A DNA stretch of 64,000 bases, taken from Opitutaceae bacterium TAV5 (GTDB lineage Bacteria; Verrucomicrobiota; Verrucomicrobiia; Opitutales; Opitutaceae). Positions within the stretch are counted from its first letter, which is position 1. Every line of letters starts with the position of its first letter. The DNA is taken from the NCBI GenBank assembly GCA_000242935.3, contig CP007053.1, positions 1,302,001-1,366,000 of the forward strand, in the 5' to 3' direction. Both the position numbers and the translations under genes were made by a program. Positions 26,574 to 47,755 of the stretch are shown one piece after another. Below the pieces are notes generated by a model. The model had not been told where the DNA came from, made no database searches, and saw only the letters and a program-made list of their open reading frames with translations.

Positions 26574-28007
26574 TTAGGCCGCTGACGCTGTCGGAATTTT
26601 GATCACCCCTTGTTCAATCGCCTTTTGCACTAGTTCGACAAGCTTGGCCACATCCAGCGCTGGCGTGGCCATAGCAGTCTCGGTTGCGAAGAAAGATGTG
26701 GGCTCAATCTTGCTCGAAACATAGTATTTCCGAGTGAGGCCGATGGTCGAGTGTCGCAAGCCGACGCTTGCTGCGAAAATGCCGTGCCGTTGCGCCAAAT
26801 GGGAACCAAATTCCTTTCGCAGCGTGTGAATGCGGTTTGTGAAGCGTGTGATGCCCTTCGTCTTCAACCATGCACAAAGCGCCGTGAAGTCTTTCTTGCA
26901 ACGGTAATGGCGCTGAGGCGCATCCAGCCGTGGAGGAACATCGGACGCCAGGACGAACTCATCACGACTTTCGGATGCATGCTCGCGCAGCTTTTGGGCG
27001 AAACGCAGTTCCAGTTGAATCTTGCCGACCGAGGAATCGCTTTTCAGCCGGCTGTATTTGGTCGGCGCCACCGTCACCGTTCCCGAAGGCAGGTCCACAT
27101 GCGACCACGGCAGCTTGTCGATTTCGTTGCGCCGCATCCCGGCTCCAATCGCGAGAATGAAGATGATGATCTGATTTCCCGAGAGCTCCTTGAAGGCGTC
27201 CTCGATCAGTTGCTTGGCATCCACCTCCGAGATGTAGAAAAAATCCGACTCCCGCTCCGACAGAAGCTCGACACCTGCAAACGGCAGCGGGTCAGGCAAG
27301 GCGAGATTTGGGCATTTCGTGAGCACCCGCTTGAGCACTCGTTTGGCGAAGAGCGAACGTGCGTTGCGAATGAAGCTGTTCGCGGTGTGCTCGACGCGCA
27401 CGCGAGCCTCGGTCCCCGCCGGCCGACGGGCCACGTAGGCGTCGCGCCATTCCACCACCCGCTCGGGCGTGATCGTGTTGAGCAAAATCTTGTCAACCAT
27501 CTGGCGCCACTTGGACGGCTTTCGGCCACCGGTGTATTTGTCGGTTCCGGTCAGGGTGATGCCGCGGATGCTCGCCGCGATCCGGCGGAACAGCGCGGCA
27601 TAACCGTTGAGCGTCATGGGATGAAGCTGACCGTGTTGGGCTACGATTGCGATGTAACCGCCGACCGTCAGGTCACAGAGCTCCGACTCAAACGCCGGCT
27701 TGAACTTTTTCCGTGTCGCATCCCAGCCATGCAACCGGAGGTGTTGATCGATTTCACGCGCCAGTTTCGCGGCGGCGTCGAGATCGGCCCCCAGCTCAAA
27801 CCATTCGCGGTGCCGACGGCATTGAATCCGGATGAGGTATTGCGGCGCCGCATCGGCCCCATAGTATTTCCGGGTGTTGCGCTGAATGCGCTGTTTCAAG
27901 CGGGCGAGGCTGCCATGCGTGGTGGTTGGGGCGGCGGAATTCTTGCCCACTTCTTGCCCACTTTTTTGACTTTGCCGGGTGGTTTCGTTTTCGAGCGACT
28001 TTTTCAT
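26574..28007 (-). CDS. int: Tyrosine recombinase (integrase) of the tRNA-Leu island
   Basis: 477 residues. The C-terminal catalytic domain has the tyrosine-recombinase set: Arg I in GAGMRRNEIDKLPW (about 288), a Lys in the following beta hairpin (TKYSRLKSD), HTLRKEFGSHLA (HxxR, about 391-402), GLRHSTIGLTRKYY with the second His and the nucleophilic Tyr (about 413-427). The N-terminal 120 residues form the arm/core-binding region. It starts about 105 bp from the tRNA-Leu 3' fragment at 28113, the normal position for an integrase beside its attachment site. A related 5' remnant is at 6266-6348. Confidence 0.92.
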   Translation of the reverse strand: MKKSLENETTRQSQKSGQEVGKNSAAPTTTHGSLARLKQRIQRNTRKYYGADAAPQYLIRIQCRRHREWFELGADLDAAAKLAREIDQHLRLHGWDATRKKFKPAFESELCDLTVGGYIAIVAQHGQLHPMTLNGYAALFRRIAASIRGITLTGTDKYTGGRKPSKWRQMVDKILLNTITPERVVEWRDAYVARRPAGTEARVRVEHTANSFIRNARSLFAKRVLKRVLTKCPNLALPDPLPFAGVELLSERESDFFYISEVDAKQLIEDAFKELSGNQIIIFILAIGAGMRRNEIDKLPWSHVDLPSGTVTVAPTKYSRLKSDSSVGKIQLELRFAQKLREHASESRDEFVLASDVPPRLDAPQRHYRCKKDFTALCAWLKTKGITRFTNRIHTLRKEFGSHLAQRHGIFAASVGLRHSTIGLTRKYYVSSKIEPTSFFATETAMATPALDVAKLVELVQKAIEQGVIKIPTASAA

Positions 28008-32372: not shown

Positions 32373-32987
32373 CTATCCCGAGAAGAGATCGTGCTCGACC
32401 TGATTCCCCAGCACGTCCCAGCCGGGGCGCTTGAGCCGGGAAAACATTTCGAGGCGCTGCGCATCCGGGAACCACGCCGCGATCCTGTCGCGCACATAAT
32501 CGGGCTTGGAGGAATGCCGTCCCCGCGGGCAGCGAATCACCGATGAAATGCGCAGCGCGGGGGCAGGATGCCGGACCCTGCCCCGCGTGCCCACCATGAG
32601 CAGTTCGTGTTGGCCCCGAAACCAATAACCCATGCCGAGCTTCACCTTGTCCCAAACCGCGTGCGATTTATACGTGAATCCCCACGAAGTCATTGTGCGC
32701 AGCCCTTCGCACAGCTTGGGAACCGTGACCCAAAGGTAGAGCACGGCGTCTTTCGACGCGGGCACCTGCATCGCCCATATCTCTTCGTCTCTCATCGTCG
32801 GATAGTGGTTTTCGATGGCGCGATTGGGCGTCGCGTCGTTGTAGCGCCACGGCGGATCGGCGTAGATGACGCCGTAAAGTTTCCCGCGGGGCGGCTCAAT
32901 CAGACCGCCGACCACACGTTCCCGTGCGAGCGCCACCCGCAGGTGACGCTCGCTTTCGGGCACCGGGATTCGTGCGATGTTCTCCAT
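32373..32987 (-). CDS. MT-A70 family adenine methyltransferase
   Basis: 204 residues. The catalytic motif ADPPWRYND (43-51) is the DPPW signature of N6-adenine MT-A70 enzymes. Also visible: NHYPTMRDEEIWAM, LYLWVTVPKL, ELLMVGTRG and a closing LEMFSRLKRPGWDVLGNQ, all typical of phage and plasmid members. It probably methylates element DNA to resist host restriction. No cognate endonuclease is next to it, so it is an orphan enzyme. It lies 21 bp downstream of the cytosine methyltransferase on the same strand. Confidence 0.88.
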   Translation of the reverse strand: MENIARIPVPESERHLRVALARERVVGGLIEPPRGKLYGVIYADPPWRYNDATPNRAIENHYPTMRDEEIWAMQVPASKDAVLYLWVTVPKLCEGLRTMTSWGFTYKSHAVWDKVKLGMGYWFRGQHELLMVGTRGRVRHPAPALRISSVIRCPRGRHSSKPDYVRDRIAAWFPDAQRLEMFSRLKRPGWDVLGNQVEHDLFSG

Positions 32988-33008: not shown

Positions 33009-34052
33009 TCAAGTCCGGCCGGTCACTCGACCGGCTGTCCATCCTTGGCGGAGTGTCCGCCATGCGAGCGCAACCACTGCCGGAACCTGGCCGTTGCCGA
33101 GGCATTTAAGTCGGTCCACCCGAGCGGCCACGTCGGGTTCAGACTGCCACCATTCTCCGCCATCACGCGATGATCCAGCCGGTCGTTCACCCGCGACCGG
33201 CCGCTCTTGCGCGTCAGGCTTGTGGGCGAACAACCCTTCGACGCTGACGCCGTCGGCGTCGGGAACGCCCGCTCCGCCTGGTTCACGGCCCGACCCAGTT
33301 CGTTCCCGCTCGGGCCGTTGCTCCGCCCGTCCGGACTGAATCCGTGCGGCGTCGGCCACATTTCCCGGACGGGCGCCGTCCTCTTGGCCCGGCTCCCTCC
33401 GCGCAAGCCGTTCGTCATCGGTGTGGGCCATACGCCCATGCGCGGAGGCGTGATAGTCCCCTCCGCCATCGCTTCGGCCTCCGCCACCGTGATCGCCCCC
33501 ACCTCGACCAGTTTTCTCAACTGCATAATCGCCCCCTCCGACCTCCAGCCGTTGCACGTCGGCGCCGGCCAGAATCCAGATCCGCTCCCGACGATGCGGC
33601 GCGCCGGCATCACTGGCTCCGAGCACTCCCCAGCGTGCATCATACCCCAACGCGGCCAAATCTCCGAGAACACGTCCCAGCCCTCGAAGAGTGAGCATTG
33701 GGGAGTTCTCCACGAGGACATAACGGGGTCCCACCTCGCGAATGATGCGTGCCATTTCCCGCCAGAGCCCGCTGCGCGCTCCATCGATGCCCACGCCTTT
33801 GCCGGCGGCGCTGATGTCCTGACACGGAAACCCGCCTGATACGACGTCAACAAGGCCGCGCCACGGGCGGCCGTCAAAACTGCACACGTCGGACCAAACC
33901 GGGAAAGGTTCGAGGCAGCCATCGTTCTGTCGTTGCGCCAGAACGGCTGCGGCGAAGGCATCACGTTCAACGGCGCACACGCACCGCCAGCCGAGGAGTT
34001 GCCCGCCGAGTATTCCTCCACCAGCGCCTGCGAAAAGAGCCAGCTCACGCAG
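33009..34052 (-). CDS. DNA cytosine-5 methyltransferase (Dcm-type)
   Basis: 347 residues. SAM motif LALFAGAGGGILGG at the N-terminus, catalytic GGFPCQDISAAGKG (Cys about residue 77), VLVENSPML (ENV-equivalent, about 115) and APHRRERIWILA (about 150-161). The C-terminus ends in RVDRLKCLGNGQVPAVVALAW. The middle is Gly/Asp/Arg-rich and unlike a standard target-recognition domain. There is no ATG, GTG or TTG between the upstream in-frame stop and the first motif: the protein must start at CTG (34052 or 34043, the latter nine bases after AGGAGG), or by a -1 shift at an upstream A8 run (34124-34131). A second frame fully overlaps it. Confidence 0.85.
   Translation of the reverse strand: MRELALFAGAGGGILGGQLLGWRCVCAVERDAFAAAVLAQRQNDGCLEPFPVWSDVCSFDGRPWRGLVDVVSGGFPCQDISAAGKGVGIDGARSGLWREMARIIREVGPRYVLVENSPMLTLRGLGRVLGDLAALGYDARWGVLGASDAGAPHRRERIWILAGADVQRLEVGGGDYAVEKTGRGGGDHGGGGRSDGGGDYHASAHGRMAHTDDERLARREPGQEDGARPGNVADAARIQSGRAEQRPERERTGSGREPGGAGVPDADGVSVEGLFAHKPDAQERPVAGERPAGSSRDGGEWWQSEPDVAARVDRLKCLGNGQVPAVVALAWRTLRQGWTAGRVTGRT
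33023..34048 (-). CDS. Overlapping reading frame with WPTP-repeat protein features
   Basis: The same DNA as the Dcm gene in another frame encodes 341 residues from GTG 34048, four bases after AAAGGAGG. It has internally consistent protein features: SFARWDPVMSSWRTPQCSLF, then WDVFSEIWPRWGMMHAGECS, repeated GFWPAPT, VWPTPMT, MWPTPHG and FPTPTAS, and a C-terminal GGSLNPTWPLGWTDLNASAT. I recall proteins with these WPTP and LNPxW...GWTDL motifs annotated in phages and mobile elements. This may be a dual-coding locus or a conserved spurious frame of a high-GC dcm gene. Function unknown; its start has the better ribosome-binding site of the two frames. Confidence 0.45.
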   Translation of the reverse strand: MSWLFSQALVEEYSAGNSSAGGACAPLNVMPSPQPFWRNDRTMAASNLSRFGPTCAVLTAARGAALLTSYQAGFRVRTSAPPAKAWASMERAAGSGGKWHASFARWDPVMSSWRTPQCSLFEGWDVFSEIWPRWGMMHAGECSEPVMPARRIVGSGSGFWPAPTCNGWRSEGAIMQLRKLVEVGAITVAEAEAMAEGTITPPRMGVWPTPMTNGLRGGSRAKRTAPVREMWPTPHGFSPDGRSNGPSGNELGRAVNQAERAFPTPTASASKGCSPTSLTRKSGRSRVNDRLDHRVMAENGGSLNPTWPLGWTDLNASATARFRQWLRSHGGHSAKDGQPVE

Positions 34053-34134
34053 CCTCCTTTCGCCCGAAAACGCCGACGGAGTTTGAGTTTCGCGCGTGGT
34101 GGAACGCGCCGCTGGTTGGAGACTTTTTTTTCAT
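34045..34134 (-). CDS. Possible 29-residue leader peptide upstream of the methyltransferase
   Basis: ATG 34134 encodes MKKKSPTSGAFHHARNSNSV then GVFGRKEAA and stops at TGA 34047-34045, overlapping the GTG start (GTGA) of the WPTP frame. Its last codons contain AAAGGAGG. It could provide translational coupling. It has no homology that I recognise, and chance cannot be excluded. Confidence 0.3.
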   Translation of the reverse strand: MKKKSPTSGAFHHARNSNSVGVFGRKEAA

Positions 34135-34141
34135 CGTCCAT

Positions 34142-34793
34142 TCTGAACCGCGCACGGCACATTCCCCACAACGCCGCGTGCGTGCCGGGTTCAGGAGGCG
34201 CGGCGTGCCGTGATTTCGGCAGAGGCACCCCGTTGGATTGCGCCCCGCGCAATCCAAGGTTGAAGCCATGCAGCCCGACAAAGACAGCGAGGCGGCGGCG
34301 GACACACGGCGGCCGGAGTTTCCGGCCGTCCACGAGGCGAATACGCTCCTGCACCGTCTTTCAGTTCCGCGAGCCGTGATGAACGTCCTGATCGGCCCGC
34401 CCCGTGCGGAAGGTCATCCCGCCCTGCGGTGTCGTCTCCTGACATCGTCCACATCCGGGCGAGGCCACGTCGAACTTCCACCGGCTTCGTTCTCGATCCC
34501 CGCGGGCCACGGCCGGCACGGTGTCATTCCCCGTCAGCGCCAGCGAATGCGTTCACTGCCCCGGGCGGTTCGCATTTTGTCCGGCAAGTCCGCCTGCGCG
34601 GACCGCTCCTTTTTTCCGGATCGTTTTTGCTCTCTCTGGCGGCCCCTCCAGCCGGTCCGCCGCTGCGCGGACAGGGAGCGTTCGGGTCCTCCTTGAAAGG
34701 AATCCCCCCAACCGTCCCCTCGTCCCGGCCGGCACCCCCGCCTTGGGGCGAGAGAGCAATCCCGCTCCTCACAAAATCAAAAAAAGGAACTAT
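34142..34793. other. 650-bp stretch without a supported gene
   Basis: Open frames exist on both strands but all are Arg/Pro-rich and show no domain, so I call no gene. The interval probably contains the divergent promoters for the methyltransferase run (minus) and the small cargo genes (plus). Confidence 0.4.
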
Positions 34794-45055: not shown

Positions 45056-47755
45056 TCAGGCGTTGGCGATGATTCCCTCCACTACGTTGTCGTAGCTCTT
45101 GAGCTCCTTTTCCCGCTGGTCGTAGTGCGCGCCGGAGCTGGACGCGCAGTAGAGCATTTCCCGCGAGGCCGCGTTGCGCATGGTGACGATCATCGGCCGG
45201 CGTTCGTCCGTGTGGTAGTAGGTGAACTGCGAATACTTTCGACCGATGATTTTTTCCGGCTCCGGGTGCCGCATGACGGCATCCTTCACCGCCTCCGGAA
45301 TCGGAAAATCCTGGCTCAAGTCTTCGATGTCCGAGCGGTCGCTCTGCCGGAGGAGGAAGAGAATGCGACTGTTGCCGAGCACCGGCCCGCGGATGTCCGA
45401 CGAACTGAACTGCTCGTAGTTTTGGACGGTGGCGACGTTCCAGACGTTGTATTTTCTCAACTGCTGATAGCTCTCTCTCAGCACCTTCTTGCCGGACGGA
45501 ATCAGGGCGAAGCGCGCCACCTCCTCGAAAATATTCCGTTTCCGCAGGGCGCGCGGCAGCCGCATCATGTGCGAACGGGTATAGTTCGAGATCAGGAACG
45601 CCGCCGCCGCCTTCAGCTCCTCCGCCGACTCCGGGATGTAGCCCAATTCAAAATGCGCGATCTTCCCGGTGAGGTTCACGTTGGAGACACCATCGAAGAG
45701 TTCCCCATAGGCGCCGCCCGAGGTCCACGGCTCCAGGAGCGTGGCGAGGTAGCGCATTTCGTCGGCGTGCGGCCCCGACGCCTCCGCCGACAGCAACTCC
45801 TGCAAATGGCCGTGCTGCGGGTAGTCCGCTGGCGTGAACTCCGAAAAGATCAGGTCGCGCACCCGCTGGGAGCCGACGCTGTCTTTTTCGAAGCGCAGCA
45901 CCTCCGCCTCGCCGATGCCGGCGACAAACGCCGCGGCTTCATCGGGCTTCGCCTTCTCGAACTCGACGAATTCCAGGAACGCATCCAGGTCGGTCGCCTG
46001 CGGACCCATGCGCTCGCGGCGATACTCCTCCAGCGCGCAGGCCCGCCGGGCGAGCAGTCCGCGCCGTTCCGGGCGCTTGTTCAGATACCAGCGGGCGAAA
46101 TCGTCATACAAGCGACCGATGGAATTCGCGAGCAACGCCTGGCGGAGCTTGTTGCGGTCCTCGTCCTTCGACTGGCCTACCATGAGCATAGGCAGCGCCG
46201 CCGCCGCGCTCAGGTGCAGGCCCGACAACGGCAGGCCGCGCGTGTCGAGGTAGTTCATTGTCAGCTTGCCGTTGGCCTGGACGATGACCGAACGCGCGTC
46301 AGGATCGACCGTGCGCACATAGACGGCGTAGGCGTTGCCTTCCTCGACGATAGTAGTGAACGCGAAATACATCCCCGTCTGCGTCAGGATGTCGATCAGG
46401 TTGACGCTCTTGCCCGATCCGGTCGTGCCGATGACGACCGCGTTTTGCGGAGTCTGGTTGTTGCCTTCGCCGACAAACGTCCGCCCGCCGACGAGGTTGC
46501 CGTTGGCGCCCTCGTAGATGAACTCGGCGGTCTCCAGATAGCCGGCCGGAGTGGAAGAAAAGGGCAGAATGTTCGCGACCAGCGCGTCGTCATAGTCATG
46601 CCAGAGCGACGTGTAGCGGCTATGCGTCCAGCCCGGCCACGAGCAGTAGAAGAAATTCCGTGCCGAGGTTTCGAGCGCCGGCTCATACGCGACCGCCCGC
46701 TCCATGTTGCCGACGGAGGCTTTCAGCGCCGTCAGCTTCGCTCGCAACTCCTCCCGGTTCTTATCCCACGCCCGGATGATATACTGGATGCGATACGGTG
46801 AACTGTCTCCGTTGCTGTAGCGGGCGATCTTCGCGGCCTTCGTCTTCATCGCCGCCAGCAGCTTGATCTTTTTCACGCTCTCGTAATCGCCTTCGACGCG
46901 ACTCAGTTCCTTCTGCTCCTTCTCGATCAGTTCCTCCACGTCCACCGCCGCGACGTTGACCGTGATCGCGTAGTCGCGGAGCGCGAGTTTGGTGAGAAGA
47001 TACGCGATGCCGGGATGGGTGCGCTTCGGGAGGGATTTCAGGACGAGCAGCCCGTGGTAGTAGCCGTCGAGGTAGAAGCCGGTGTCGGGCTTGTCCAAGG
47101 GACGGCCCTCGCTGTGCCAGCAGTTTTCCTGAATGGATTTCTCCGGGTCGAAGAATTCCAGCGGGTCGGAGATGTTCTGTTCCGGCAGCGACGGGTTCAG
47201 GAACTCCAAGTAGTGAAGGAAATGGTCGGCGTCCGTCATCGGCCGCACCGTGCCGCCGCTGCCGCTCAGGAGTGCCTGGAGAAACTGGCCGATCTGGTTG
47301 AACTGCTCCGCGTAGGCGGCGACCAGGGCTTCGTGCGTGGCCTGCCCTGATTTGCCGACCGCGGTCGCGTCCACCGGGATCGTGAAGTAAACGCGGAGTC
47401 GTTCGCGGCGCAGCAACCCTTCCTTGCCCATCTTCATGAAGCGCACGAAACGTTCGTTGCGCTGGCGCTTCTCCCAATCGTTCGCGGCGTGCTCCAGGGT
47501 TTCCGACCGGTAGCGCTGGAGCGGACGCCGAAAATCGGAGTCCGGCATCCATTGCACCTGCATTCCCCAATCGCCTTTCAGGAGGGCGAGCATCGCCACC
47601 AGGTCGGCTTCGAGCGCGTTGTGATGGACGGGATCGGCATTCTCCAGGTCGGGTGCGGTGATCTCGAAGCCGCGCGAGATGAAGCCACCCCGATGCAGGC
47701 CGCCGAAGACGATCAGGTTTTCCCCGAAAAATCCGTCGATGGGTTCCACGCGCAT
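45056..47755 (-). CDS. virB4: VirB4/TrbE-type T4SS ATPase
   Basis: 899 residues. Walker A VVIGTTGSGKSVNLIDIL at about residues 437-454, an upstream N-terminal domain with RYRSETLEHAANDWEKRQRN, and VirB4 C-terminal motifs in YESRNVWNVATVQNYEQF-like region (WNVATVQNYEQFSSSDIRGP), VLGNSRILFLLRQ and the final RRPMIVTMRNAASREMLYC. VirB4 energises pilus assembly and substrate transfer at the inner membrane. It is the largest gene of the operon and lies 2 bp after virB3. Confidence 0.9.
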   Translation of the reverse strand: MRVEPIDGFFGENLIVFGGLHRGGFISRGFEITAPDLENADPVHHNALEADLVAMLALLKGDWGMQVQWMPDSDFRRPLQRYRSETLEHAANDWEKRQRNERFVRFMKMGKEGLLRRERLRVYFTIPVDATAVGKSGQATHEALVAAYAEQFNQIGQFLQALLSGSGGTVRPMTDADHFLHYLEFLNPSLPEQNISDPLEFFDPEKSIQENCWHSEGRPLDKPDTGFYLDGYYHGLLVLKSLPKRTHPGIAYLLTKLALRDYAITVNVAAVDVEELIEKEQKELSRVEGDYESVKKIKLLAAMKTKAAKIARYSNGDSSPYRIQYIIRAWDKNREELRAKLTALKASVGNMERAVAYEPALETSARNFFYCSWPGWTHSRYTSLWHDYDDALVANILPFSSTPAGYLETAEFIYEGANGNLVGGRTFVGEGNNQTPQNAVVIGTTGSGKSVNLIDILTQTGMYFAFTTIVEEGNAYAVYVRTVDPDARSVIVQANGKLTMNYLDTRGLPLSGLHLSAAAALPMLMVGQSKDEDRNKLRQALLANSIGRLYDDFARWYLNKRPERRGLLARRACALEEYRRERMGPQATDLDAFLEFVEFEKAKPDEAAAFVAGIGEAEVLRFEKDSVGSQRVRDLIFSEFTPADYPQHGHLQELLSAEASGPHADEMRYLATLLEPWTSGGAYGELFDGVSNVNLTGKIAHFELGYIPESAEELKAAAAFLISNYTRSHMMRLPRALRKRNIFEEVARFALIPSGKKVLRESYQQLRKYNVWNVATVQNYEQFSSSDIRGPVLGNSRILFLLRQSDRSDIEDLSQDFPIPEAVKDAVMRHPEPEKIIGRKYSQFTYYHTDERRPMIVTMRNAASREMLYCASSSGAHYDQREKELKSYDNVVEGIIANA

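Follow-up and report, generated by a model that had tools for sequence, protein, structure and literature searches.

Two same-strand open frames at a cytosine-C5 DNA methyltransferase locus of Opitutaceae bacterium TAV5 and its phage relatives: a probable two-subunit enzyme

Does a one-kilobase locus with two long open frames on the same strand encode one protein or two, and if two, how are they related? The question is raised by a DNA methyltransferase locus of Opitutaceae bacterium TAV5, located in a 64,000-nucleotide stretch of contig CP007053.1 (positions 1,302,001 to 1,366,000; hereafter the window, in whose coordinates the locus is described), where a sequence-only reading had noted two frames that both look coding. 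The locus is probably (at roughly 0.8) a nested gene for a two-subunit cytosine-C5 DNA methyltransferase of a phage or mobile-element type, in which the product of frame A, alpha, would be the catalytic subunit and the product of frame B, beta, would supply target recognition. In relatives of this locus both frames are under selection, and the motifs of the enzyme are divided between them. The sequence-only reading missed this complementarity: the two products look like parts of one enzyme.

Openness, starts and selection of the second frame

Both frames lie on the minus strand at the coordinates first proposed, frame A at 33009..34052 and frame B, in the +1 phase, at 33023..34048 (341 codons from a GTG at 34048). 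Frame A is open from stop to stop over 33009-34130 and frame B over 33023-34360. Frame A, the putative alpha subunit with motifs I-VIII and X, matches PF00145 (Pfam, 2.8e-30) and phrog_363 (PHROG, 3.2e-62); frame B, the putative beta subunit, matches phrog_1008 (PHROG, 1.1e-16), whose catalogue label is DNA methyltransferase and is silent on a second-frame origin. The four motifs named for frame A are all located there: FAGAGGG (motif I, 34014..34034), the catalytic PCQ (motif IV, 33819..33827), ENS (motif VI, 33702..33710) and RER (motif VIII, 33582..33590), all on the minus strand. The LNPTW and GWTDL motifs ascribed to frame B belong to a single block, LNPTWPLGWTDL (33107..33142, minus), and the WPTP-type units occur as two WPTP, one FPTP and one WPAP. 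In the window alone, frame B has 0 stops compared with 1.96 expected from synonymous shuffles (P = 0.093), which is not beyond chance; the significance of its openness comes from the relatives.

The relatives comprise 80 IMG/VR loci kept from a search with frame A, 17 from a search with frame B, and seven phage records (six found via frame B, one via frame A), which together with the window make 105 sequences. The frame B core is stop-free in 98 of them, with a mean of 0.095 stops against 4.50 expected from synonymous shuffles, and the third frame has 15.95 stops against 13.33 expected. To lessen bias from recruitment and from relatedness, the analysis was restricted to the 80 loci recruited by frame A and to one representative per cluster at less than 70% identity, leaving 43. 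Forty-one of these representatives have no stop in frame B, and the total is 3 stops compared with a null mean of 193.1, the lowest of 2000 shuffles being 161. Broken loci were kept in both tests. Free breakage of frame B among dcm homologues, a prospect raised by the sequence-only reading, is thus absent from these diverse representatives.

The start sites give a second line of evidence. In the common form, beta begins at an ATG four bases after the alpha start codon. When 11 loci of other start type and 11 duplicates are dropped from the 80 recruited by frame A, 58 distinct loci of the commonest start type are left, and in all 58 the asparagine at alpha position 2 is written AAT, the codon that creates the beta ATG; elsewhere in the same genes AAT accounts for 203 of 608 asparagine codons. 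The first codon of alpha is variable across these loci (29 ATG, 12 GTG, 10 TTG, 7 others). A Shine-Dalgarno-like match is present upstream in 45 of the 58, most commonly (16 of 45) at a spacing of 4 bases to the alpha codon and 8 to the beta codon. A broader count of 142 of 142 start codons was not used here, as it includes loci recruited by frame-B patterns. The better conservation of the beta start agrees with the earlier claim that frame B has the better start, which also holds in the window: the beta GTG stands four bases after a Shine-Dalgarno-like AAAGGAGG (34053..34060, minus) that abuts the first alpha CTG, and the sole start codons of frame A ahead of FAGAGGG are CTG at 34052 and 34043, with ATG, GTG and TTG all absent there and an internal GTG at 33980 as its earliest ordinary start. 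An open stretch in the third frame (34045-34305, minus; no PHROG match) has its TGA stop in overlap with the beta GTG (GTGA); should that stretch be a gene, the two could be translationally coupled.

Frames A and B were aligned from 81 of the 104 loci and the window, near-duplicates and seven loci whose frame B is broken or short (L007, L049, L066, L092, L093, L096 and L103) being left out; the protein-similarity tests, the variable-region comparison and the fourfold-site figures for the window's clade all rest on these 82 aligned rows. Among pairs above 0.60 identity, frame B similarity exceeds the synonymous-shuffle null in three regions (motifs VI-VIII, the variable region and motif IX), and there its margin is wider than that of the third frame; across residues 1-110 it surpasses the third frame by little. 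The selection on frame B that had been proposed is observed as conservation of the protein beyond the constraint of frame A, though the most divergent pairs show this clearly around motif IX alone. The third frame and the non-overlapped start of the same genes served as controls for an inherited-codon artefact.

A cleaner control is provided by a sister clade of 80 loci resembling cyanophage S-H1, in which beta begins about 50 codons into alpha. Among its 1728 pairs at 0.4-0.6 identity, the identity of alpha at fourfold degenerate sites is 0.281 outside the overlap and 0.440 and 0.626 inside it, at amino-acid identities of 0.68 outside and 0.62 and 0.63 inside, and the contrast persists up to 0.9 identity. 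The lowered synonymous change in frame A that the sequence-only reading had proposed to look for is thus seen with an internal control. Beta also covers the start of alpha in the window's clade, and there fourfold identity is 0.475 in codons 4-48 and 0.666 in the motif IX/X block.

Division of the motifs and the proposed enzyme

Of the features expected from PF00145, alpha has motifs I, IV (PCQ), VI and VIII, plus motif X; a recognition domain and motif IX on the same chain are missing. In a structural model of the window alpha, the recognition region is unfolded: residues 177-325, which correspond to a variable region at 33090..33536 (minus), are unstructured and of low confidence, and conservation there lies mainly in frame B. 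A folded recognition domain is thus missing from alpha as modelled. In the same model the C-terminal helix aligns to M.HhaI up to residue 327, and at its start stands GNGQVP (33081..33098, minus), taken as motif X, which is near-invariant in the 82 aligned frame A rows and weak by profile (hhalign E 0.31).

What alpha lacks appears to be present in beta. A motif-IX-like block (loosely PxW...LMG) was found in frame B in 16 of 24 and 69 of 80 loci of two sister sets, some of the loci without it being short, and in frame A in 0 of 104. Its place is directly before motif X, the position that motif IX takes in single-chain enzymes. A scan of IMG/VR for the block NPx[WF][VI]E matched at least 600 stretches, of which at least 516 were confirmed. 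Among the 80 viral loci kept (73 new, 7 on contigs already fetched), the block is in the +1 frame of the core in 80 of 80, frame not having been a criterion of recruitment, and motif X is back in the frame of the core in 71, the pattern having missed it in the other 9. Of 76 beta proteins, all 76 match phrog_1008 and 39 match phrog_31772, both PHROG families labelled DNA methyltransferase. A further conserved beta block, SWRTPQCSL...WPRWGMMHAG (33629..33715, minus), overlaps alpha motifs VI-VIII.

In the enzyme that we propose, frame A would yield an alpha subunit consisting of the S-adenosylmethionine-binding and catalytic core (motifs I-VIII) and motif X, linked by a stretch that stays open, for which no fold is predicted and in which little sequence of its own is conserved. 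Frame B, whose start stands a few bases further on and shares the ribosome-binding site of frame A, would yield a beta subunit carrying the variable recognition region with its WPTP units and the motif-IX-like block. We infer that beta is translated, binds alpha and reads DNA, and that the two would assemble into one active heterodimer, with target recognition given by beta.

Such a division is not without parallel. M.EaeI is a two-subunit C5 methyltransferase like M.EcoHK31I, and the small-subunit gene of M.EcoHK31I was reportedly found in 1995 to lie in an alternative frame inside the large-subunit gene. Alpha resembles the large subunit of that enzyme in carrying motifs I-VIII and X without IX. 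For the putative second polypeptide, the block in the +1 frame agrees with motif IX in pattern and place, but shows no significant profile similarity to it. A complete motif IX is absent from the window copy, in which seven near-invariant central residues of the block are missing. According to PMC3404938, M.EcoHK31I is built of two polypeptides, the large one bearing motifs I-VIII and X and the smaller one motif IX alone. The present family differs from it in that beta spans nearly all of alpha (in the window's clade) and starts four bases after it (in the common form), in that the recognition region appears to lie in beta, and in that copies occur in many phages. In M.AquI, two polypeptides likewise make up one C5 methyltransferase (PMC3404938), but motifs IX and X stand together on its small subunit, whereas motif X is here in alpha. 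Alpha has its catalytic core and the C-terminal helix of motif X in common with M.HhaI and other single-chain PF00145 enzymes; M.HhaI, unlike alpha, also holds the recognition domain and motif IX in its one chain.

M.EcoHK31I is the precedent, from which the family departs in the extent of the overlap, the arrangement of the starts, the apparent placing of recognition in beta and the spread in phages, whose hosts include proteobacteria, cyanobacteria and actinobacteria. The literature searched contained no account of such an arrangement in phages, most subscription papers lying outside its scope. As a tentative view, held at a little less than even odds, a large lineage of phage C5 methyltransferases writes catalysis and recognition in two frames, and the apparent recognition region of the large chain is mostly the shadow of the beta frame. 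A pair of compensating frameshifts around the recognition region would have turned a single-chain ancestor into this arrangement, followed by growth of beta upstream into the catalytic part, up to the full-length overlap of the window's clade.

Points against the two-subunit reading and its alternatives

Several results weigh against a beta subunit of this kind. None of the 76 beta proteins has a significant Pfam match, and NCBIfam gave one weak match in one member. Comparison of beta with solved methyltransferase structures gave no significant match, a weak one being to an uncharacterized protein (E 0.034), and against the single-chain methyltransferase profile the hhalign probability is 0.07% (17 of 21 loci with usable protein). 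The motif-IX-like block is the top-scoring stretch in 50 of 82 beta proteins, yet it scores above the protein's own shuffles at 0.05 in just 6 of 82, the position-specific matrix being weak and built on 11 sequences; the putative assignment of motif IX to beta rests on pattern and position, and not on a significant profile score. In M.EcoHK31I, the predicted recognition domain is placed in the large subunit, not the small one (PMC3404938). The selection signals are uneven as well. Among 57 pairs below 0.60 identity, beta clearly surpasses the third frame in the surroundings of motif IX only, frame B identity in the motif VI-VIII region being 0.213 compared with a null of 0.208. The S-H1-like contrast is gone in codons 60-110 of the 11 closest pairs (0.903 outside, 0.880 inside), and in the window's clade fourfold identity in codons 60-110 is only 0.370 (chance 0.298). 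A set of 16 SG4-like mycobacteriophage sequences is mixed, the region outside beta being more conserved at 0.6-0.75 identity and less conserved at other distances. In the variable region, alpha similarity exceeds its null by more than the third frame (0.53 vs 0.14 per site, a contrast that arises partly from a stop penalty), and alpha may be under some selection there. Furthermore, in 5 of the best 80 bacterial-genome loci (L119, L141, L147, L148 and L165) the alpha open stretch is shortened and beta is open, through either sequencing error or decay.

Two more such points concern the window copy itself: the seven-residue gap in its motif IX block relative to relatives, in-frame for both proteins, and the lack of a standard alpha start codon before motif I. 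Both favor the view, which we hold at just under an even chance, that this copy is a decaying pseudogene whose frames are open by inertia; the view applies to this copy only and is compatible with a two-subunit enzyme in the family. It is opposed by two frames that are stop-free over 1 kb, by intact catalytic motifs and by a good beta start. Because motif IX residues are missing and full-length alpha has only CTG starts, the window copy may be impaired, and it may well be decayed or weakly active; the sequence-only reading had passed over what looks like damage to motif IX. With the window copy possibly damaged, the finding concerns the family, of which this copy is an example.

It is improbable that frame B is a real, selected overlapping gene with some other job (e.g., a regulator or an anti-restriction factor) and not a methyltransferase subunit. 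Such a role would accord with the lack of significant sequence matches between beta and methyltransferases, but a motif-IX-like pattern is missing from all 104 alpha frames, the recognition region of alpha is unfolded in the model, and the beta block occupies the expected place of motif IX. The two PHROG labels point the same way, as does the position of beta, which is inside an alpha gene in phase +1 in all 160 beta-recruited loci, made up of the best 80 bacterial-genome loci (80 of 80) and the best 80 viral ones. Among these same loci, neither an in-frame single-chain version nor a stand-alone beta was found; distant forms could escape both scans, since the patterns were built from known beta proteins and only the best 80 were kept.

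If ribosomes were programmed to shift from A to B once past motif VIII and to return to A ahead of motif X, a single polypeptide would result, with the canonical order of motifs I-VIII, recognition domain, IX and X restored in one chain; this reading is nevertheless very unlikely. Two shifts would be required, beta retains its own start codon, and alpha is open through the variable region to motif X, with 80 of 80 frame-A matches reaching query residue 337 or beyond. In the 82 aligned rows, the variable region of alpha has 0 stops compared with 3.6 expected, partly by construction as rows were cut at the first stop of alpha. Keeping alpha open across this region would be needless if ribosomes left that frame. 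Finally, the idea that frame A is the sole gene, with frame B open through amino-acid and codon bias, fits the window taken alone and is already refuted for the family, in which stops are about 60 times more numerous in shuffles that preserve the protein and its codon usage, the beta start codon is conserved, and lowered synonymous change in the S-H1-like set is limited to the overlap.

Surroundings, annotation and significance

An integrase-like gene (26574-28007, minus; phrog_1, 6.6e-16) lies 5 kb from the locus, and GC content changes from 0.53-0.61 over 9-33 kb of the window to 0.61-0.69 over 33-43 kb; together these suggest that the locus is at the edge of an integrated element. Among 20 window proteins scanned, the sole match of structural type is a weak one to a terminase (45059-47755, 9.4e-7). 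Directly downstream of the locus, and in tandem with it, is a second DNA methyltransferase gene (32373-32987, minus; phrog_359, 3.3e-53), which we take from its motif to be of the adenine MT-A70 type. Another C5 methyltransferase of the host genome (G000:C1:1833815-1834390) matches the beta profile weakly over its core (3.2e-6), and a simple motif scan found no beta-like frame in it.

In six of the seven phage records the only annotated frame is A, and in the seventh it is B: in Pseudomonas phage phPA-G (L004), frame B is annotated at 1501-2229 as a hypothetical protein and no frame-A gene is annotated. The annotated DNA methyltransferase genes of mycobacteriophages Spikelee (L112) and SG4 (L113), as well as their IMG/VR relatives (L199-L209), carry the beta frame. 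An out-of-frame HNH insertion has been described in mycobacteriophage methylases (PMC11855218), for which the extra frame of the host gene could matter.

Long same-strand gene overlaps have seldom been proved in bacterial viruses, and this family offers hundreds of natural copies (at least 516 confirmed), those examined carrying strong signals of selection for the second frame. Should the two products prove to be subunits of a single enzyme, many annotations of phage dcm genes lack half of it. Methyltransferase specificity would then have to be predicted from an unannotated frame, and any shift in specificity would be constrained by the need for alpha to stay open.
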